Assembly: GCA_902533445.1 (NCBI GenBank)
Contig: CACALX010000001.1
Span: 62,001-126,000 of the forward strand
Direction: 5' to 3'
DNA: 64,000 bases
From: an uncultured Pelagibacteraceae bacterium
GTDB taxonomy: Bacteria; Pseudomonadota; Alphaproteobacteria; Pelagibacterales; Pelagibacteraceae
Translations under genes and position numbers: made by a program
The notes under the pieces: model-generated
The model's database searches: none
What the model saw: the letters and a program-made list of their open reading frames with translations, nothing else
What the model was told of the DNA's origin: nothing
Shown: in pieces, positions 1-9,970 of the stretch
Position numbering within the stretch: the first letter of the stretch is position 1
Layout: every line of letters starts with the position of its first letter

Positions 1-239
1 ACGAATTTTCTTTTTGGAATTACACATTTTTTGGTGACATTTTTTGAATGTTGTAAATTAACTAAATTTTCATCCTCTGCCACTTCCCACATATTTAAAT
101 TCCAAGTGCCAATTTTTCTTAATTCAAAATAACCAGACTTTTCATAACAATTAATTTGAATAAGATCGAACCATTGATCAGCAAAACTATTGTTTGACCA
201 AAAAAGACTAAAAAAGATTAATAATAAAAGTTTTTTCAT
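1..239 (-). CDS. Partial secreted protein, 3' end beyond window start (MKKLLLLIFFSLFWSNNSFADQWFDLIQINCYEKSGYFELRKIG...)
   Basis: Minus-strand ATG at 237-239 and an open frame to position 1; N-terminal signal peptide; abuts the stop of the 240-1544 ORF. Not in the supplied track because it is truncated. Confidence 0.75.
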   Translation of the reverse strand, partial: MKKLLLLIFFSLFWSNNSFADQWFDLIQINCYEKSGYFELRKIGTWNLNMWEVAEDENLVNLQHSKNVTKKCVIPKRKF

Positions 240-1544
240 CTAATAATTTGGAATATTTAATGTTTTATCGTTAACTAAAATTTTATTTCCCATTATTTTT
301 ATAGAAGCTTTTTGACGATCACCTAAGCTAATAGATACAAGTTTTTCCAATACCACCTGTTGTTTATCGAGAGTAATTCCTTTTGAATTAAACAAGTCAT
401 GATCTGCACCCAATCTTTTTTTAACTTTTAAAACTAATAGATCAGAAAATATCCCTGAACCTCCACTGTTTGACTGTGTTTTTAAAACCATTGCACCATT
501 ATCCGTAGTCCCATAATAAAAATATAAAAAATAACCTTCACCATTTGGATAGTTAATTGAAACGACAGGCTTTCCTTCATCTAATCTTGAGATTTCATAA
601 TCATCTAAAAGAGAATATTGGTTTGAATCAAATGCGTCTGAAAGATTAATTGTGATGATAATATCTCCACTATCTGCATATCCAGGAATGAAGTCCTTTA
701 TAATTTCAGGATGTACTGGATGTTTTTGATAAAAGAAATGTTTAGAAAGACATGATTTAATTGTTCCAAATTCATTATCTGATTTTTGACAAACTGGATC
801 AAGTTTGTCCAAAGTATTTTTAACATTTAAATCCGATAGAGCACTTTCCAAAGATAATTTGGCTGGTTTATAAGTTGGATCAACTTCTAAGGTTTTTTTA
901 TAATATAAAATAGCTCCATTTAAGTATCCGTTCCTATTAAGCACATGTCCTTTTTGTAGAAGTAATTTTTTATTATCTGATTGTTCCTGTATAGAAACTA
1001 GTTTTCCATTTTCCCATACTGCTGAGAATTTTGCTTTAACATCAGCAAAAACTAAGGTTCCTTGACCATGTTTTTTATTATTCTTATATTTTCCATAAAA
1101 TAATTCACTATTGTCATAAACAATTGGTTGCTCTCCTTCAAAAAATGCAACACCATCTTTAAATTGACCTACATACTCTTCACCAGTTGGTAATATTATT
1201 TTACCTTTGCCGTTCTCCTTATCATTTTTCCATTCACCACTATATTTGAGTCCATTCTTATATCTAATTGCACCAGAGCCACTTTTTTTATCATCCTTCC
1301 ATTGACCTATATAAAGGATACCATCTGCTTCATCTGTGAATGTACCTTCACCATGTCTTTTGTCATTTTTAAATTCACCTTCATATTTTTTAAAATTCCA
1401 ATAAATTAAAGTTCCTTTACCCTCACGTTTTCCATCAACTAATTTTCCAATGTATTCATCTCCGTTAGGATAGAAAAAAGATTCAGCTAAACTAAAATTG
1501 GACCATGATAAAATAATTGTCAGGATTAAAAAAATTTTCTTCAT
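240..1544 (-). CDS. Secreted MORN-repeat protein
   Basis: Signal peptide followed by repeated Y-x-G-x-(W/F)-K-x-x-K-x-x-G-x-G units (e.g. YIGKLVDGKREGKGT, YEGEFKNDKRHGEGT, YSGEWKNDKENGKGK). Confidence 0.85.
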   Translation of the reverse strand: MKKIFLILTIILSWSNFSLAESFFYPNGDEYIGKLVDGKREGKGTLIYWNFKKYEGEFKNDKRHGEGTFTDEADGILYIGQWKDDKKSGSGAIRYKNGLKYSGEWKNDKENGKGKIILPTGEEYVGQFKDGVAFFEGEQPIVYDNSELFYGKYKNNKKHGQGTLVFADVKAKFSAVWENGKLVSIQEQSDNKKLLLQKGHVLNRNGYLNGAILYYKKTLEVDPTYKPAKLSLESALSDLNVKNTLDKLDPVCQKSDNEFGTIKSCLSKHFFYQKHPVHPEIIKDFIPGYADSGDIIITINLSDAFDSNQYSLLDDYEISRLDEGKPVVSINYPNGEGYFLYFYYGTTDNGAMVLKTQSNSGGSGIFSDLLVLKVKKRLGADHDLFNSKGITLDKQQVVLEKLVSISLGDRQKASIKIMGNKILVNDKTLNIPNY

Positions 1545-2059
1545 TTAAATTTTTCTATTTTAACTGAATAATCGATACCATTAAATGATGGTTTTTTATC
1601 GTCAAATTTTAGGAAATAAGCTTTTATAAAGTGTTTTCTAGATCCTGTACCCCAATTTGTTCCTTTTAATTTTATCTCACTTAAACCATCACTATTTAAA
1701 TCTTCAATCTCTACACTTCTTGGTGCAAATGTTTGGGTTTGATCAAATTCTTTAATATAGAATGTTGTTTCTTCGCTAACTAATATTACAGGATTATTTT
1801 CTTCAATATAAAATATATAAAACTGTCCACTTTTAGTGTCCTCTCTTCCTGCGTAATAAAATTTATATCCATTATCAGTGGTTTTAATATCGACGATTCC
1901 TGAAAAAAAGTTATTCATTATATCTGAACGCTCTTTAAATTTCTTATAAAGATCATTGTTTGAAAGATTTTTGTTTATAAAATCACTGCTTACCTCTCCT
2001 GCAAAAGTTACTGTCGGCAGAAATAGAATTAAAAATATTACTAGTTGAACTTTTCTCAT
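1541..2059 (-). CDS. Secreted hypothetical protein with FG-GAP/EF-hand-like DLNSDGLSEIKL motif
   Basis: Signal peptide, overlap with the MORN gene, D-x-N-x-D-G motif. Confidence 0.7.
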   Translation of the reverse strand: MRKVQLVIFLILFLPTVTFAGEVSSDFINKNLSNNDLYKKFKERSDIMNNFFSGIVDIKTTDNGYKFYYAGREDTKSGQFYIFYIEENNPVILVSEETTFYIKEFDQTQTFAPRSVEIEDLNSDGLSEIKLKGTNWGTGSRKHFIKAYFLKFDDKKPSFNGIDYSVKIEKFK

Positions 2060-2073
2060 TTATTCATCCAAAT

Positions 2074-2385
2074 TTAATTTTTTCTAATTTTTAAAAAGCA
2101 GTAAATATAAATACCTGAAGTAACAAAGTTAATTGGCATCCATATTTCTCTAGTTAAATTTACTGGAATAACTGGATTGTATAAAATTGCAATTAGTCCA
2201 AATAAAATTGTTATTTCGTTAATACCTCCTGCAGCTTTAACATTATATATAATTATAATTATTGACGTTATTGTTACGATCAATCTCAAAAACATATAGA
2301 AACCATACGGAAAGCTAATAAGAGGGGCTAAAATTAATAGAACTGCAGGTATTATTAAAAAAAGATTTAAAGAATTTTTATTCAT
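2074..2385 (-). CDS. Small multi-pass membrane protein, unknown
   Basis: ORF with several hydrophobic segments, overlaps the next gene. Confidence 0.6.
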   Translation of the reverse strand: MNKNSLNLFLIIPAVLLILAPLISFPYGFYMFLRLIVTITSIIIIIYNVKAAGGINEITILFGLIAILYNPVIPVNLTREIWMPINFVTSGIYIYCFLKIRKN

Positions 2386-2773
2386 TACTAACTCTATATT
2401 CCATTAAATAATAATAAAATGTAATAAGCATAATCACATCTCTAACAAAACTATTTATCATAAAAGAAAGGTTTACCTCAGATGAAGTGATTATATTTTC
2501 ATATCCAAAATAGATCATCATTAATACAGGTACAATTAGAGTGAATTTAAAATTAAAATTCTTATAAATTTTTGAAATTGCAAAAGCTGAAAAGTAACCT
2601 GCAACATATCCAGAAATAGCAAAGAAAATAAATTCACTGCCAATTTGCATGTTTCCTGAAAAAAAATTGGCAAACGATGCAAAAAGTCTACTTCCTAATT
2701 GTCCAATTAACATTCCAATAACCGCTGTTAATGGAAACAGCAATGAAACTAAAACACTTAGAAATTTATTCAT
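2378..2773 (-). CDS. Small multi-pass membrane protein, unknown
   Basis: ORF with hydrophobic segments, 1 nt from the next gene. Confidence 0.6.
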   Translation of the reverse strand: MNKFLSVLVSLLFPLTAVIGMLIGQLGSRLFASFANFFSGNMQIGSEFIFFAISGYVAGYFSAFAISKIYKNFNFKFTLIVPVLMMIYFGYENIITSSEVNLSFMINSFVRDVIMLITFYYYLMEYRVSNE

Positions 2774-2774
2774 T

Positions 2775-3224
2775 CTATATTGATATTTGTTCTTTATACC
2801 CGCTTATTTTAATGACTTCATCATGAAGTTTTTTAGCTTTAGGACCTGCTCTTGAGTACTGGTTATCTAAAAAGAAAGCTTCAACTTCCATGTTGTTATA
2901 GTCAAAGTTTAAACTAAACCCTCCATAATCCATTATACCAATAATCCTATAATTAAATTTACTCCATGTTTTTCTATCTTCTGCTTCAATTGAAGGTGTG
3001 ATCCATCTATGAGCACCAGAATATGTTAAATCAATTTTATGATCAAAAAATTCATCCTGAATAATTCCAATTCTGAATTTAGCCAACTCTTTGGTAATAT
3101 CTTCCTTACTAAAATTTTTTTTATTTTTTTTTAACTGATCTAAAATGTTCCAAACTTCTTTAGTGATACCAACTATTTCTTTTGCTAATTTTTCAATCTC
3201 TTTATTTTTAAAAAGACCAAACAT
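2775..3224 (-). CDS. Hypothetical cytosolic protein
   Basis: ORF in a same-strand gene run; no family recognised. Confidence 0.6.
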   Translation of the reverse strand: MFGLFKNKEIEKLAKEIVGITKEVWNILDQLKKNKKNFSKEDITKELAKFRIGIIQDEFFDHKIDLTYSGAHRWITPSIEAEDRKTWSKFNYRIIGIMDYGGFSLNFDYNNMEVEAFFLDNQYSRAGPKAKKLHDEVIKISGYKEQISI

Positions 3225-3333
3225 TCTAATTATTTTTTCTTAGTTACTTTTTTAGTTTTTTTCATTGGCTACTAGAATATATTGCATACGCTAAAGCTAC
3301 AAGTTCAATAGCTATAACTACTTCAAGCATTCA

Positions 3334-3684
3334 CTAAATCTTAACAACAGGAAAGTTAGAATGAGTAAATGATATTAATATTAACCACAGTATAAATATA
3401 AGTCCCATTATAGATCTAGCTTTCCACTTTTCAGTTGCCTCAAGGTAATAGTGAAATCTTGCAAATCTTCCATCGTTAGTATCAGCTAGATACAATATGG
3501 AATATATAACGACAAAATTAATACTGTAATTAATAAAATTATCTAAATTTCTATCCATTTCATGTATCAACCAAAACCAAAGAAGTGGGTAAACAGGATA
3601 AAAAAACACACTGAATGTAGGAGGAAAAACCCATTTCTTTAAAAATAATTTATAATTTGTATTAGATTTTTTATTATCATTCAT
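3334..3684 (-). CDS. Small membrane protein, unknown
   Basis: ORF with at least two hydrophobic segments, 1 nt from the next gene. Confidence 0.55.
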   Translation of the reverse strand: MNDNKKSNTNYKLFLKKWVFPPTFSVFFYPVYPLLWFWLIHEMDRNLDNFINYSINFVVIYSILYLADTNDGRFARFHYYLEATEKWKARSIMGLIFILWLILISFTHSNFPVVKI

Positions 3685-3685
3685 A

Positions 3686-4861
3686 TTAATTTTTAATACG
3701 TTTTATTTTTCCTGACTTGTAGTTGTATTTTCTTCGATGTGTTGAATTAAAATTTGTTATCAATAAATCGTTATCAGCAATCATTTCTGCCTTTAAACCT
3801 CTGTCATTAGAACCTTTAATGTACCAATATTTATTTTTATAAATTATCAAAGCTTCAGAAGTGTAGACACAATTTTCACCACACTTTTGATCTACTATAG
3901 AGCTCATCTCATATCTTTCATAAGAGATGTTTTTTGAAATAGATTTTAAAGTTTTTTTATTTTGAATAATATTTTGAGGCATCAAAGGTTTATCTGATGA
4001 ATACGATTTAACCGGAAAAGTTTTATGATGTTTTTCAAACTTTTTTGATAAACAATCAATATCCAGATTTTCACCAACAAAGACCTCGACCTCTGTAATA
4101 CTAGTTTCTGTAAAATTGTAAGAACGTTTATATTTACTACACGCTCCTAAATATTCTGCGTAAGTAGCGGACTGATCAATATATCTTTTATCCAAGTCCA
4201 TTATTTGGATATAATTATTCTCATAGAACGAGGTAACTATAGCAGTCATTGTTCGAGCACCCATCGAATTGGAGCCATCAATCTGAAATCTAATAACAAG
4301 ATCCATGAAGTCATCTTTGTTTGCATCTGCATAAAAATAATCAATAATATTTATCCAGTTATTTTTAAGATCTGCATCATCTTTGTATTTAATTGTATTT
4401 GGATCATATGTTGTTATTTCCTCCACACCGCACCTTCTGCTTATGTCGTAAAAAGTAATTCTTCTCTCTTTTTTGATGTTTATTTTGCATGTGTAGTAGG
4501 GATTGTTTGGGATGCTTATTCTTAATGAGTTGTTTTTAAGAAATTTAAAATCAAGTTTTTCTAAGTCTAAAGCAGCCCATCCATCTTGAATATAATCATA
4601 CTTAGCCTCTGACTTAAATTCAGCACGCATACCAATGGTCTCACAATAATTCTCTATTGAGAATGCTATGTTCAAGGTCATCTGATCAAGTTGACTTAGA
4701 TCTATGTTGCTAGATTTATATTGATTACAGATACCTAAAATTTCAGTTGTATTTAACTTTTTGTCTAATAGCTTTTCGTTAAAATCATAAACTGCATCAT
4801 TAGAAATTGCAGGTGTTAAATATAAAAAGCATAAAAAAATAATTCCTAAAAGCTTTTTCAT
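3686..4861 (-). CDS. Secreted hypothetical protein with VCBS/EF-hand-like YADANKDDFMDLVI motif
   Basis: Signal peptide, 391 aa ORF, D-x-N-x-D-D-x-x-D motif. Confidence 0.7.
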   Translation of the reverse strand: MKKLLGIIFLCFLYLTPAISNDAVYDFNEKLLDKKLNTTEILGICNQYKSSNIDLSQLDQMTLNIAFSIENYCETIGMRAEFKSEAKYDYIQDGWAALDLEKLDFKFLKNNSLRISIPNNPYYTCKINIKKERRITFYDISRRCGVEEITTYDPNTIKYKDDADLKNNWINIIDYFYADANKDDFMDLVIRFQIDGSNSMGARTMTAIVTSFYENNYIQIMDLDKRYIDQSATYAEYLGACSKYKRSYNFTETSITEVEVFVGENLDIDCLSKKFEKHHKTFPVKSYSSDKPLMPQNIIQNKKTLKSISKNISYERYEMSSIVDQKCGENCVYTSEALIIYKNKYWYIKGSNDRGLKAEMIADNDLLITNFNSTHRRKYNYKSGKIKRIKN

Positions 4862-4885
4862 AATCCAAGACTACCAAATCTCAAA

Positions 4886-5002
4886 CTATTCAACCAGCTC
4901 AAATTTTTTATATTTTAAAAACTTAACGTTATTAACAACATCTAATGAAAGCCTAATATTCCTATCCTCTTCTAAAGCAATGATTAATTTACCGTATGCC
5001 AT
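4886..5002 (-). CDS. 38-aa small ORF MAYGKLIIALEEDRNIRLSLDVVNNVKFLKYKKFELVE
   Basis: ATG overlaps the TGA stop of the DUF3883 gene (5002-5004); stop at 4886-4888. Below the ORF track size cutoff. Confidence 0.45.
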   Translation of the reverse strand: MAYGKLIIALEEDRNIRLSLDVVNNVKFLKYKKFELVE

Positions 5003-5898
5003 CAGTTTTTAGATATTACAAAACCATCACTTTCAACTTTCCATTCTAAATTATTCTTAAATATGGATTTATCGATATTTGTAATTTTAAGTAATTTATT
5101 ATAGTCAAATTTATCTGGGTTACTTTTATCTACCGGAAGCAAGTAAATAAAATACTTATCTTTTAATTTATTTGCAGTTTGTTTTTCTTTAACACTTAAA
5201 TGAAATTCGTAATTGGATTTAGAGATAGCTTTTACCTCAATATATATTTTTTCAACCCTATCATCTTTTTTCTCAAAACTTTGTATATCATATCCAGCAG
5301 ATACATCTCTTAAAGCTACATGATCAACTTTTAATGATGGACTGATTTGATCTACCTTGTCTTGCTCTTTTTTAAATATTAATTTTTCAGCATCATCACC
5401 TAATTGTTTTTTATCTTTTAATATTTTTTCAAGTTCACTCGGAGAAAATTCTTTATTTTTGACAAATTCTAACAAAGAATTATCTAGAATAAAGTAAGAA
5501 CCATTTTTATAATCTATTTTTTTTGATGATATTAAAAAGTTTCTTAGATCACTTGAAAGATTATTGTAAAGAGAATCTGGTTCAAAAATATATAAACCAT
5601 CTTTGAATGTAAAATTTAAAAGATATTCTTTTAAACACTGACCATAGTCAGATTTTTTTGATATTTTCCCAAAAAGCACTTTATCAAAGCTATTCTTGTC
5701 TAAATTATCTATTAAAATATTGTTTCCATTAATCCTAAGGAAATTTATATCAATTAAAAAATTTAAACTTTCTCTTAAATATTTATTTTTTTTTGAATAT
5801 TCAATTTTTACAAGTTCTAGATATTTAATTTGTCTACAAATTTCATACAAATCTGAGAGGCGTTTATAATCAATCTTTTCGAATAATTCATAGCTCAT
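5002..5898 (-). CDS. DUF3883-domain protein (PD-(D/E)xK-like)
   Basis: C-terminal GDDAEKLIFKKE...SAGYDIQSF...IYIEVKA...FHLSVKEKQTAN...YFIYLLPV matches the DUF3883 pattern. Confidence 0.75.
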   Translation of the reverse strand: MSYELFEKIDYKRLSDLYEICRQIKYLELVKIEYSKKNKYLRESLNFLIDINFLRINGNNILIDNLDKNSFDKVLFGKISKKSDYGQCLKEYLLNFTFKDGLYIFEPDSLYNNLSSDLRNFLISSKKIDYKNGSYFILDNSLLEFVKNKEFSPSELEKILKDKKQLGDDAEKLIFKKEQDKVDQISPSLKVDHVALRDVSAGYDIQSFEKKDDRVEKIYIEVKAISKSNYEFHLSVKEKQTANKLKDKYFIYLLPVDKSNPDKFDYNKLLKITNIDKSIFKNNLEWKVESDGFVISKN

Positions 5899-7745
5899 AG
5901 CTCTAGATCATTATACAATTCTTCCCAACTTTCATCTTCATCATTTAAATCAAATGTAAAATTTTCTTCTTCAATAATTCTCATTTGTCTATCAGCTTTA
6001 TGAAAAACCTTGTTGTAGACCTTGATATCTACTGAATCATTATAATGTAAAAAATCATACTCTACTGGATTATCTTCCGAACCGCCAACTCTATGAATTC
6101 TATCCAAGGATTGTAGAAATTCAGCCGCATTGTAGCTCAAATCATAATAAATGGCGTTTGTACATGCTTGATGTAAAGAAATAGACTCAGCACATGATTG
6201 AGGTGTTGCAACAATTGCATCAAGACTGGATTCTTTATCATTAAAATCTATTTTAATATTTTTCCTTTGATCAAGATCAGTCTCACCAATAATTTTTTCT
6301 GCTCTAATATTATTTAAAGTTAATTCTTTATGAATTAAATCAACTGTTTTCAGATGGGTAGACCATATAAGTACCTTTTTGTTTTTAAACTTAAGATTTT
6401 TAACTATTTCTAATAGTTTCAGTAATTTTGCTGGTTTTTCTAACTCATCATATCTTGCAATTATTCCTGATATATTATTGGTAATTAAATTTTCTTTTTG
6501 AAAAACAAGATTATCTTCAAGCACACTTTCAAGATTTTTTACATAAGATGCACATTGTTTTAATCTAATAATCCTAGCTTTACATATTTGTTCGATTAAA
6601 TCAGCATTATCAAAAAATTCTTTACGACCATAATCTTTTATATTTGTTACAATTGCATCATAAATTTGTTTTTCGTAAGGATTCATGTCTACTAATATAG
6701 GTGGATTAAATATTTGCTTTGCTAAATTTAAATCGTTCTTAGTTACTCTAACAAAGTAAGGATTAATTTTCTGGCTTACAAATTCAATCGCTTCTTCATT
6801 GTTTTCTTTATTTAAAAGAAATTCAACTCTACTTTTATCTTCAGATGTTAAAACTTTATCTTGGCCATATAAAAAATCTAAATAATTAAATATATCTCTC
6901 AGATCATTCGGCACTGGTGTACCTGTAAGCACAACTTTAAATTCTGAACAAGCTGATAACTCTAAAATTGCTGATGACCAGGTACCTTCAATTTTTTTTA
7001 TATAATGAGCTTCATCAATTACTAGTAAGATTTTATTTCTTGAAAAAAAGCTTTTTAATAAATCTATATCTCTGGTCACAGTTTGAAAGTGAGATAATAT
7101 TAAATTTGATGTTAAAATTTTTTCATAAAAAAGTTGTCTATCATCTGGATCCGGACCAAGTATTTTCATTTTTGGTTTCTGATTAAAATTTTTATAGAAT
7201 TCAAATTCCCAAGAACCAAAAGCATTTTTTGGTCCTATAACAAAAATTGCATCAACTTTATTTTCAAGCCTTAATTTTTCAAAGTATGCAAGTACGACTG
7301 ATGTTTTTCCACTACCTGGTACAGAAAAATTTGCTGCTGATCCAGCAGAATATAAATGAAACAAACTATTAATTTGGTGATCAACAAGATTTCTATATAA
7401 AAAATTAATTGTCTTATTGAAATTATTTAATTCATCTTTGCTTTCCTTGTTTTTAATTTTAGAGATTAAATTTGCTTTATTTCTAAATTGCTCTCTCTCT
7501 GCTTTAATCTTATTCAAATAATCATCTAATTCATTATTTAGAATGATATGAATTTTGTTTTTTTCTAAAAATTTAACTATTTTCTCCATATTTATTAAAT
7601 CAATAACTGAAGAATATTTTATTTTTTCTTCTGACTCTTCTTTGTTGAGATTAAAATATTTCAATTGAAAGATTATTTTATCAGGTGGTCTTTGATCAAA
7701 AATAATTGAAAAATTATTTTCTTTTAAATTAACTTTTGCCTTCAA
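5895..7745 (-). CDS. SNF2-family DEAD/DEAH-box helicase
   Basis: Walker A VPGSGKTSVVLAYF, Walker B VIDEAHYIKK, motif III LTGTPVPNDLRDIFNYLDFLY, motif VI LQSLDRIHRVGG. Confidence 0.9.
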   Translation of the reverse strand: MKAKVNLKENNFSIIFDQRPPDKIIFQLKYFNLNKEESEEKIKYSSVIDLINMEKIVKFLEKNKIHIILNNELDDYLNKIKAEREQFRNKANLISKIKNKESKDELNNFNKTINFLYRNLVDHQINSLFHLYSAGSAANFSVPGSGKTSVVLAYFEKLRLENKVDAIFVIGPKNAFGSWEFEFYKNFNQKPKMKILGPDPDDRQLFYEKILTSNLILSHFQTVTRDIDLLKSFFSRNKILLVIDEAHYIKKIEGTWSSAILELSACSEFKVVLTGTPVPNDLRDIFNYLDFLYGQDKVLTSEDKSRVEFLLNKENNEEAIEFVSQKINPYFVRVTKNDLNLAKQIFNPPILVDMNPYEKQIYDAIVTNIKDYGRKEFFDNADLIEQICKARIIRLKQCASYVKNLESVLEDNLVFQKENLITNNISGIIARYDELEKPAKLLKLLEIVKNLKFKNKKVLIWSTHLKTVDLIHKELTLNNIRAEKIIGETDLDQRKNIKIDFNDKESSLDAIVATPQSCAESISLHQACTNAIYYDLSYNAAEFLQSLDRIHRVGGSEDNPVEYDFLHYNDSVDIKVYNKVFHKADRQMRIIEEENFTFDLNDEDESWEELYNDLEL

Positions 7746-9160
7746 TTTAAATTTTCAGTTTCTTTTTTGAAATCTGCTAAGGAACGAGTACCTTTTTTAA
7801 GATTTTTAGGATGTTTTTTCTTAGCGGCAAATAATGTTGCATGTAAATCTCTGCTAGCTGTCTGTATTTTTTGACATAAGTCCATAGCTTCTTCGATATC
7901 ATTGTCATTAATTAGTCTTTTTATTTGATCTTCATCTAAGTGTTTGTGGTCAAATTTTTTTAAAGCCTCTTTTAATCTATCGATTGGTCCATCTTGCTGT
8001 TCCTGTTTCTTGTCTAATCTTGTGAGTGCTTTAACAAGATTTGATACTTCACCTGCTCTTTTATGTTGCCAAGCTCTATCTTTTTCGTCTGCATCTTTAT
8101 ATCCATCACCAACATCTTCAATATCTGCTAATTTTAAAAAATCATCTTTAAATTCCATCCACCCTTTAATCTCTCTTATTATGTCTGTATGTCTTTTGAA
8201 ATTAGCAACTTTTGGATCTTTAAGTTTTATTAAATTAAAGCACGCTTGTGTAATGGCACCTTGGTCATCTGCACTATATCCAAAATTTTGTAAAAAAGTT
8301 TTAAAGGATTTGTTATCAAATTTAGAAATAATTTTTTGATTTAATTCTTTGAAAGATTCCCATCTGTGTTCAATTTTTTTGTAGTCACCTTTCATTCCAT
8401 TAGACTCTAAATATAAATCTATAAGATCTAATGTTCCAAAATTTTCAGTTTTCCAATCTTTAACTTCTTTTTTAAAATCTTTTTCTGATAATTCAGAAAA
8501 ATTTGGATCATCATTTAATAGTTCTTCCAACTCAACAGTTCCATCAGTATAGGATCTAAATGAAAGTACTTTATTCATAACTGAATATTCAGACCAACCA
8601 TCTCTTCTCATTTGAAGTCTGTTTTCTAGCAAGGCAATATCAACATGTGTCGGTGCATCACTTAACATGTTTCCTTTTTCATCATGACCAGGTAAAATTA
8701 TAACATTGATATATTTGTAACTCTCTCTATCTCTTTTTTGTGTTTCAAATAATTTACCTAAAGCCCATCTCCTTCTATTTCCATTTATTAAAAATCCATC
8801 TGCAGTAATTATTGCTGGTTCAATTTGACCTGTACTTTTTAAAGATTTCATCAGCTCTTCATTTTTTGCTGGATCAGATTTTTCTAAAAAACTAGCAATC
8901 TTTTTTTGATCTTCTGATGACAAGTCATCAAGAGGTTTCTCTCGGGTTGCATGAGTTAAGGTTTCAGTTTTAATTCTCCCATTCTCAGATCTAAATCTAC
9001 AGTATTCAATTGCTATTCTGTATATTGGGGATTTTTTACCAGTTTTTTTCCAATCTTTATATTCAATAGTATCTTCACCTATTGGATCACCTTTGGCGAT
9101 TGAAATGGCTTTTTCAAACTTATCATTAATAACAAGTTTTTTATCTGTTATTATTGTCAT
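7742..9160 (-). CDS. ParB/sulfiredoxin-like domain protein with a long helical C-terminus
   Basis: N-terminal LKSTGQIEPAIITADGFLINGNRRRWALGKL matches the ParB-N GxxINGxRR signature; 4-nt overlap with the helicase gene. Confidence 0.8.
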   Translation of the reverse strand: MTIITDKKLVINDKFEKAISIAKGDPIGEDTIEYKDWKKTGKKSPIYRIAIEYCRFRSENGRIKTETLTHATREKPLDDLSSEDQKKIASFLEKSDPAKNEELMKSLKSTGQIEPAIITADGFLINGNRRRWALGKLFETQKRDRESYKYINVIILPGHDEKGNMLSDAPTHVDIALLENRLQMRRDGWSEYSVMNKVLSFRSYTDGTVELEELLNDDPNFSELSEKDFKKEVKDWKTENFGTLDLIDLYLESNGMKGDYKKIEHRWESFKELNQKIISKFDNKSFKTFLQNFGYSADDQGAITQACFNLIKLKDPKVANFKRHTDIIREIKGWMEFKDDFLKLADIEDVGDGYKDADEKDRAWQHKRAGEVSNLVKALTRLDKKQEQQDGPIDRLKEALKKFDHKHLDEDQIKRLINDNDIEEAMDLCQKIQTASRDLHATLFAAKKKHPKNLKKGTRSLADFKKETENLN

Positions 9161-9218
9161 AAATTATATTAACAAATCTCTAGCTGAGAGTCTAATTGCT
9201 ATATGCAAAAACCTTGTA

Positions 9219-9425
9219 TTATATAGCTTTTACTTCTTTAGCGTTTGCATGATAGCAGCTCTTACAGATACTTCCCGTATTGTATTCGAATTCAGAAAAT
9301 ACTATTGTGAAGTTTCTTTTAGCAATTTCAGTTCGATCAGAATTACAAAAAATACATCTATCGTATTCGACATTTTCAAATACCGATTTATGGTTCTCTT
9401 TGCCTGTGCCTCTGTACCATGCCAT
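9219..9425 (-). CDS. 68-aa putative zinc-binding protein (CxxC...CxxC)
   Basis: MAWYRGTG...RCIFCNSD...ICKSCYHANAKE; two CxxC pairs; 58 nt upstream of the ParB-like gene, same strand. Confidence 0.55.
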   Translation of the reverse strand: MAWYRGTGKENHKSVFENVEYDRCIFCNSDRTEIAKRNFTIVFSEFEYNTGSICKSCYHANAKEVKAI

Positions 9426-9609
9426 TTGAAATAAATTTTTTAAAAAATTTTTTACCTTTCACTTTAGAACATAGTTTAAAATTTCTGGTTTGTGAATCCG
9501 CTGCTGTTGAAAAACCAAAATGAATTTGGGACCCATAAGTGTTTCAACTCTAGTAAAGATAAGCATATAATCTAAAGGTTGTTTTTATTTAGGAAAGGTC
9601 ATTAATCGT

Positions 9610-9697
9610 CCATAGAGCCATTTTAAGACTCGTTCGGGACCCCTCTTCAACAAGTGAACCATGGTGAACTTAGCGGAGCAACAGCGACGCTCTATGG
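9610..9697. other. Unidentified structured-RNA candidate closed by a 9-bp perfect stem
   Basis: CCATAGAGC (9610-9618) pairs exactly with GCTCTATGG (9689-9697); interior is GC-rich relative to its surroundings; no intact ORF. Confidence 0.4.
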
Positions 9698-9823
9698 CCT
9701 TAGTCTAGCAAAAATTCAGAGGTAAAAATCCGCATAAAGACTCAGTTATTTAATTTAAATTTAATTTTTTCTTTAGAAATAAAAACACAATAAACATTGA
9801 TTTATTTAAACAAGTAATCCTGC

Positions 9824-9845
9824 TGTGTAGTCGATGTGTAGTAGA
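9824..9845. repeat. Two-copy 11-bp tandem repeat (TGTGTAGTCGA / TGTGTAGTAGA)
   Basis: Direct read of the sequence; 10 of 11 bases identical. Confidence 0.6.
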
Positions 9846-9925
9846 AAATAATTTAGTAGATTCACAACGAGCTAAAACTGTTATAAACTCTTGCTAAGAA
9901 AGGATAAATTTATTGGAGCTATAAA

Positions 9926-9970
9926 TTTGTAATCAATAGGTCCGCGGTTCGAATCCGTGCGGGGGCACCA
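9926..9970 (+). pseudogene. Truncated tRNA-Thr(TGT) 3' fragment, anticodon loop to CCA (probable att-site duplication)
   Basis: TTTGTAATCAATAGGTC-CGCGG-TTCGAAT-CCGTG-CGGGGGC-ACCA: anticodon loop TTTGTAA, T-arm and acceptor 3' strand are intact; no GCCCCCG 5' acceptor strand and no D-arm precede it. Confidence 0.75.

Follow-up and report, generated by a model that had tools for sequence, protein, structure and literature searches.

The window under study, a stretch of 64,000 nucleotides (G000:C1:62001-126000), belongs to the genome of an uncultured SAR11 bacterium of the family Pelagibacteraceae (1.13 Mb in 26 contigs, 87% complete). Three genes within it, encoding a ParB-like protein, an SNF2-family ATPase and a DUF3883 protein, lie on one strand, each overlapping the next by 4 nt (Table 1). 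The DUF3883 gene in turn overlaps a 38-aa ORF by 1 nt (TGATG), and a gap of 58 nt separates the end of a gene for a Cys-containing mini-protein from the start of the ParB-like gene. The ORF coordinates, the two 4-nt overlaps and the 58-nt gap that had been given in an initial annotation of this DNA were all reproduced, and the overlap that it reported between the 38-aa ORF and the last stop codon is the single nucleotide just mentioned. The TTG start codon of the SNF2 gene is backed by alignment with the homologue on a marine viral contig (L097, see below). In a promoter scan, promoter-like sites were no commoner than in shuffled sequence.

Table 1. Features of the locus, in window coordinates.
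Feature	Position	Strand	Description
Whole cargo block	240..4861	-	MORN-repeat protein + six short ORFs; function unassigned for short ORFs
MORN-repeat protein	240-1544	-	cargo between primase and trio
38-aa ORF	4886..5002	-	PDC-S02 C-terminal match; remnant candidate
DUF3883/NOV_C gene	5002..5898	-	298 aa; N-terminal domain + predicted C-terminal PD-(D/E)xK nuclease domain
SNF2-family ATPase gene	5895..7745	-	616 aa, TTG start
ParB-like gene	7742..9160	-	472 aa; ParB/Srx N-terminal domain + helical C-terminal half
Cys mini-protein gene	9219..9425	-	68 aa, two CxxC motifs; copy in G039 sister element
attR	9925..9970	+	46-bp exact copy of tRNA-Thr(TGT) 3' end

Domains and folds of the three proteins

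The SNF2 protein matched the Pfam models SNF2-rel_dom (PF00176, 5e-18) and Helicase_C (2e-10). Its motifs are intact, with Walker A NFSVPGSGKT at position 139, DEAH at 244, LTGTP at 273 and QSLDRIHR at 545, and it carries the subfamily signature [ND]FSVPG[AS]GKT. The ParB match of the ParB-like protein is below threshold by sequence and clear by fold. This protein contains the motifs ENGRI (59-63), INGNRRRWA (125-133) and LLENRLQ (177-183), and residues N60, R62, Q112, G122, N128-R129-R130, E179 and Y192 are invariant in 48 homologues. The DUF3883 protein matched NOV_C (PF13020, 9e-14), and its catalytic residues E171, D204, E221 and K223 (E221-x-K223) are invariant in 47 homologues. The signature and the catalytic residues are intact across all three proteins.

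Structure prediction, suggested in the initial annotation as a check, was applied to the ParB-like and DUF3883 proteins with AlphaFold, both models being made from family alignments (pLDDT 91.5 and 93.8, respectively). The fold search placed the ParB-like model with the ParB-N domain of pNOB8 (5k5d, probability 1.00) and with Spo0J (1vz0, 0.99), and the DUF3883 model with R.SwaI (0.99) and archaeal Holliday junction resolvases (up to 0.89); since the Foldseek E-values were modest (0.01-0.02), the folds were assigned from probability, family annotation and conserved motifs combined. The ParB-like protein accordingly appears to be of the Spo0J/pNOB8 ParB-N type, and the DUF3883 protein is a predicted PD-(D/E)xK nuclease, as the initial annotation had proposed for its core; the invariant E171, D204, E221 and K223 agree with that proposal.

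The carrier element at tRNA-Thr

Positions 1-9970 of the window are only the right end of an element of 17.35 kb (G000:C1:54617-71970). Its left attachment site, attL, lies outside the window in an intact tRNA-Thr(TGT) gene (G000:C1:54566-54641), 17.3 kb to the left of attR. The accessory island with a neighbouring tRNA scar, described in the initial annotation, is real, the scar being an exact repeat of the last 46 nt of this gene. The element encodes a tyrosine recombinase, a primase of 767 aa that contains DUF5906, and HTH proteins; next come the MORN-repeat protein with small ORFs and then the trio, and no virion genes were recognised on the 17.35 kb. Several of the six short cargo ORFs (240-4861) have signal-peptide or membrane-like sequence. 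The stretch separating the mini-protein gene from attR was also considered as a structured RNA, which was rejected: it had no Rfam match above threshold and gave no signal of folding (z-scores 0.22 and -0.10).

Another SAR11 genome (G039, contig C72) carries a 7.7-kb sister element in the same tRNA gene. It comprises an integrase (71% identical to that of the present element), HTH, a primase (67%) and, at its right end, the Cys mini-protein (51%), and the trio is absent from it. The last ~250 bp of the present element (9700-9970, attR included) are 74% identical to the right end of the G039 element. Because the sister has the mini-protein without the trio, the mini-protein is, on this comparison of gene content, a core gene of the carrier element, and the trio with its neighbours is judged to be inserted cargo. 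Co-transcription of the mini-protein with the ParB-like gene is possible.

The 38-aa ORF matches positions 274-305 of the 308-residue family PDC-S02 (E 6e-6), a family whose best relative found contains a NucS_C domain. Since the match is limited to the last ~32 residues of that family, the ORF is probably a gene remnant, the non-functional leftover C-terminus of a PDC-S02/NucS_C-like nuclease gene. Its derivation from a methyltransferase gene was also considered and rejected, as the ORF did not match the C-termini of methyltransferases neighbouring the trio elsewhere and matched PDC-S02 instead. The two small ORFs, which the initial annotation had listed together with the three genes, are probably not parts of the module.

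An integrase, att repeats and empty sites in relatives identify an integrative element. In 7 of 30 loci the tRNA-Thr gene stands directly beside the NAD kinase gene and the site is thus empty; several other loci are scarred or occupied. In SAR11 relatives (L203-L240) the tRNA-Thr/NAD kinase locus is an integration hot spot, found empty, with duplicated tRNA 3' ends or with islands; in genome G019 it contains an ORF pair (L239:8012-12807) that by eye resembles a type III restriction-modification (R-M) system. In its tyrosine recombinase, HTH/excisionase-like protein, primase, tRNA att site, cargo and lack of recognised virion genes, the SAR11 element is similar to phage satellites and tRNA-integrating hitchers. 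For the packaging in helper-phage virions that marks phage satellites, the one hint is that the related contig L194 (below), with its 72-bp terminal repeat, belongs to a viral collection.

The trio of contig L097 lies on a related element. Besides the trio, the whole contig (L194; 15,430 bp, of marine origin, from a viral collection) encodes an integrase, a primase, a GIY-YIG protein and an intact tRNA-Ser, and its 72-bp terminal direct repeat fits a molecule that is either circular or terminally redundant. The trio proteins of SAR11 and L097 are 40-50% identical, with ORFs and catalytic motifs intact in both. The primase of the SAR11 element was not found in viral contigs.

Conservation of the trio and linkage to methyltransferases

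In order to see whether the three genes co-occur elsewhere, a survey that the initial annotation had recommended, we collected 101 loci by scanning species genomes and viral contigs for the SNF2 subfamily and adding plasmid and phage loci. The ParB-like gene lies within 60 nt of the SNF2 gene in 93 of 97 loci of this subfamily set, and DUF3883 is found directly behind SNF2 in 67 of the 70 loci in which it was detected. The SNF2-first scan was checked by a ParB-first search, where SNF2 and DUF3883 adjoin ParB in five of six loci (the contig of one of these five was already in the SNF2 scan). ParB homologues of plasmids and prophages have the same neighbour genes. Altogether, the gene order is kept in about 95-100 loci belonging to many bacterial and archaeal phyla; its retention in some 95 loci excludes a chance arrangement, and ParB-SNF2-DUF3883 is a real conserved module. 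Per genome it is rare: it occurs in 4 of the 299 sampled genomes of the phylum (the genome of the window included), and its SNF2 protein was found in none of the 149 sampled relatives. Weak ParB matches in SAR11 genomes G016 and G059 cover only residues 245-331 and were taken as unrelated.

Clustering of the neighbouring genes revealed methyltransferases of four classes: C5 (40 loci), D12 N6-adenine (17), N4/N6 (11) and type III Mod/Res (5). Vsr (13 loci) and a DpnII-like restriction endonuclease (REase; 20 loci) were also among the neighbours. A nucleosidase-like gene, similar to MTA/SAH nucleosidases, precedes ParB in five D12-linked loci (L018, L020, L026, L035 and L037). A locus was regarded as testable if its sequence extended 4 kb or more to either side of SNF2, and under a strict rule the methyltransferase had to lie within 4 kb. 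By this rule a methyltransferase accompanies 42 of 51 trio loci, whereas among 26 generic SNF2 loci it does so in 1 (Fisher p 1e-11); the generic loci come from viral contigs only and are imperfectly matched with the trio loci. Type III genes lie slightly beyond the limit in three of the nine exceptions, a D12 gene was dropped by the overlap rule in another three, and in one (L090) a pooled scan makes a D12 gene very probable; two exceptions remain. After inspection, a methyltransferase is present in 49 of the 51 trio loci.

The SAR11 copy departs from this pattern. A quick-search tree of 101 SNF2 proteins, with SH-aLRT support values, pairs SAR11 with L097 at full support; their sister clade has 27 members, of which 24 have a D12 or N4/N6 methyltransferase and the other three are located near contig ends. 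The C5, D12, N4/N6 and type III methyltransferase models, which do pick up the CcrM gene of the host, gave no match on the SAR11 element, in the window or on the L097/L194 element. Hence, SAR11 and L097 together make up a methyltransferase-less branch. The initial annotation had seen no methyltransferase in the window, and with the models used this is true of the whole element. It had also treated this lack as a defining trait of the system, which is not supported: with 49 of 51 relatives linked to a methyltransferase, the SAR11 copy is the exception.

Genome-wide searches with PF00145 and PF02086 found nothing, and PF01555 found one gene above the cut-off, the CcrM-like one. PF02384 gave weak matches only, namely to the CcrM gene again and to a 280-aa ORF that is possibly PrmC-like. 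At 87% completeness, an unlinked methyltransferase could be absent from the assembly. GANTC is not depleted in the element (1.96/kb versus 0.93/kb in the rest of the window), a comparison that is uninformative on CcrM-linked restriction.

Known systems and proposed function

DISARM consists of the DrmA helicase, DrmB (DUF1998), the PLD protein DrmC and a methyltransferase, and Dpd of DpdA and other Dpd proteins with genes for queuosine-type synthesis. The PADLOC libraries, a comparison also suggested in the initial annotation, yielded no exact match of the trio to DISARM, Dpd, Dnd or another characterised system. The SNF2 protein matched DpdE (7e-20), DrmD (3e-13) and ZorD (3e-13) in the helicase core only. 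DISARM, Dnd, BREX/BR, Zorya, Hma and GmrSD were set aside, and Dpd provisionally so, their PADLOC or Pfam matches being confined to the helicase core or to sub-threshold stretches. For DISARM there is a partial DrmD/DrmA helicase-core match and no other large ORF of the element fits; for Dpd, PADLOC searches of the trio and two small ORFs gave the DpdE helicase-core match only, and none of the other ORFs of the element has the expected size or place. Likeness to ZorD and HmaA is likewise restricted to the SNF2 helicase core, and no further Zorya gene was recognised on the element.

Parallels are also found among R-M systems. The BREX-related Type-1 BR systems, described as R-M-like, combine a Swi2/Snf2 helicase, a PD-(D/E)xK nuclease and a methyltransferase (PMC12839542). 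They differ from the trio in that a DUF499 ATPase is central instead of ParB, the helicase bears a TUDOR domain and a fused REase, and the N6-methyltransferase is a dedicated one (PMC12839542); the SAR11 element has no unassigned ORF of DUF499-ATPase size and no methyltransferase. DUF3883 has been proposed as a novel REase domain fused to an SNF2 helicase in R-M operons (Anantharaman 2013, PMC3710099), and a second source counts it among the presumed type II REases of archaea (PMC10609329). In the former operons the partner is a HEPN or AAA protein and ParB is not described, and DUF3883 and SNF2 are fused (PMC3710099), whereas the SAR11 genes are separate. The same three proteins in the same order do occur in type II and III R-M loci, for example in Streptococcus phage Javan191 (SNF2 31% identical over 594 aa, DUF3883 present too), Rhizobium pRL11 and Azospirillum TSH58_p07. 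Such loci usually carry a methyltransferase and often Vsr or an REase nearby; the SAR11 copy is without these, having a nuclease-like gene and no linked methyltransferase that we could find. A name for the trio was found neither in the defence libraries nor in the searchable literature, to which most subscription papers, bioRxiv and REBASE do not belong, so that novelty is unproven.

Because a methyltransferase is linked to it almost everywhere else, the trio resembles the restriction half of a family of R-M type. The Vsr, DpnII-like REase and type III R-M genes among its neighbours count in favour of restriction. Against it counts the C5-linked subset, which often has its own type II REase, so that the trio may be accessory there. 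On balance we consider it probable that the trio is an ATP-dependent DNA restriction machine that in SAR11 works without a dedicated methyltransferase, and we infer a role in defence against phages or plasmids. By analogy with known restriction enzymes, the three proteins may form a complex in which the ParB/Srx-domain protein would bind DNA as an NTP-controlled recogniser or loader, the SNF2 translocase would then travel along double-stranded DNA, and the PD-(D/E)xK nuclease (DUF3883) would finally cut it. Where a methyltransferase is linked to the trio, it would mark self, and this partner would be interchangeable within a widespread, unnamed R-M-like family. The distinct nuclease-helicase module envisaged in the initial annotation thus survives as a conserved and unnamed one, redirected to a methyltransferase-less branch of this family. 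In SAR11, the trio is cargo on a satellite-like element integrated at tRNA-Thr. Since that element has no methyltransferase of its own, discrimination between self and non-self would need another source. Among the candidates, the CcrM-type methyltransferase of the host is the one best open to testing, the alternatives being modified DNA or DNA structure; a specificity shared with CcrM is a guess, because the N4/N6 methyltransferases that accompany the trio share only 23-27% identity with it.

A self-mark would not be needed if the trio attacked modified or structurally unusual phage DNA in the manner of type IV enzymes. The absence of a methyltransferase from both SAR11-type elements fits such immunity, as do the ParB-superfamily domains reported for type IV enzymes such as GmrSD (PMC4619093). 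GmrSD itself is built of DUF262 and DUF1524/HNH, neither of which was detected in the trio with Pfam. We hold this explanation to be unlikely, given that the same proteins are tied to four methyltransferase classes in the relatives, which suggests unmodified sites as the target.

Alternatively, the SAR11 copy could be an orphan nearing loss: the elements would have lost their methyltransferase, and the trio would be inactive, silent or decaying, kept by recent transfer only. A methyltransferase adjoins the trio in the sister clade and none does here, the truncated nuclease remnant directly behind the trio indicates local decay, and the SNF2 gene is missing from the sampled relatives. But neither of the two methyltransferase-less copies has a broken ORF or catalytic motif in spite of their divergence, which implies long maintenance after the split and renders a defunct trio quite improbable. 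It is very improbable that the trio helps the mobile element to partition, excise or replicate instead of providing defence, as its ParB domain and its presence on two related integrative elements might suggest, for the G039 sister has integrase, HTH, primase and mini-protein without it, the trio stands beside methyltransferases on unrelated plasmids, prophages and chromosomes, and no ParA-like gene, as expected of ParABS, was recognised next to ParB.

Returning to restriction, we put forward as doubtful but conceivable that the methyltransferase-free branch on satellite-like elements of SAR11 protects both element and host from phages, perhaps by treating CcrM methylation as self or through a ParB clamp that recognises invading DNA. 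More generally, the trio joins ParB-type nucleotide switches, SNF2 motors and PD-(D/E)xK nucleases with four methyltransferase classes, so that one restriction engine has seemingly been combined with many modification enzymes. If the trio works in this way, it would add a restriction architecture to those of bacteria and archaea. SAR11, which is among the most abundant bacteria of the ocean, would then have small integrative elements that bring defence genes along, which would raise the testable question of what keeps such an engine off self DNA when it has no methyltransferase of its own.
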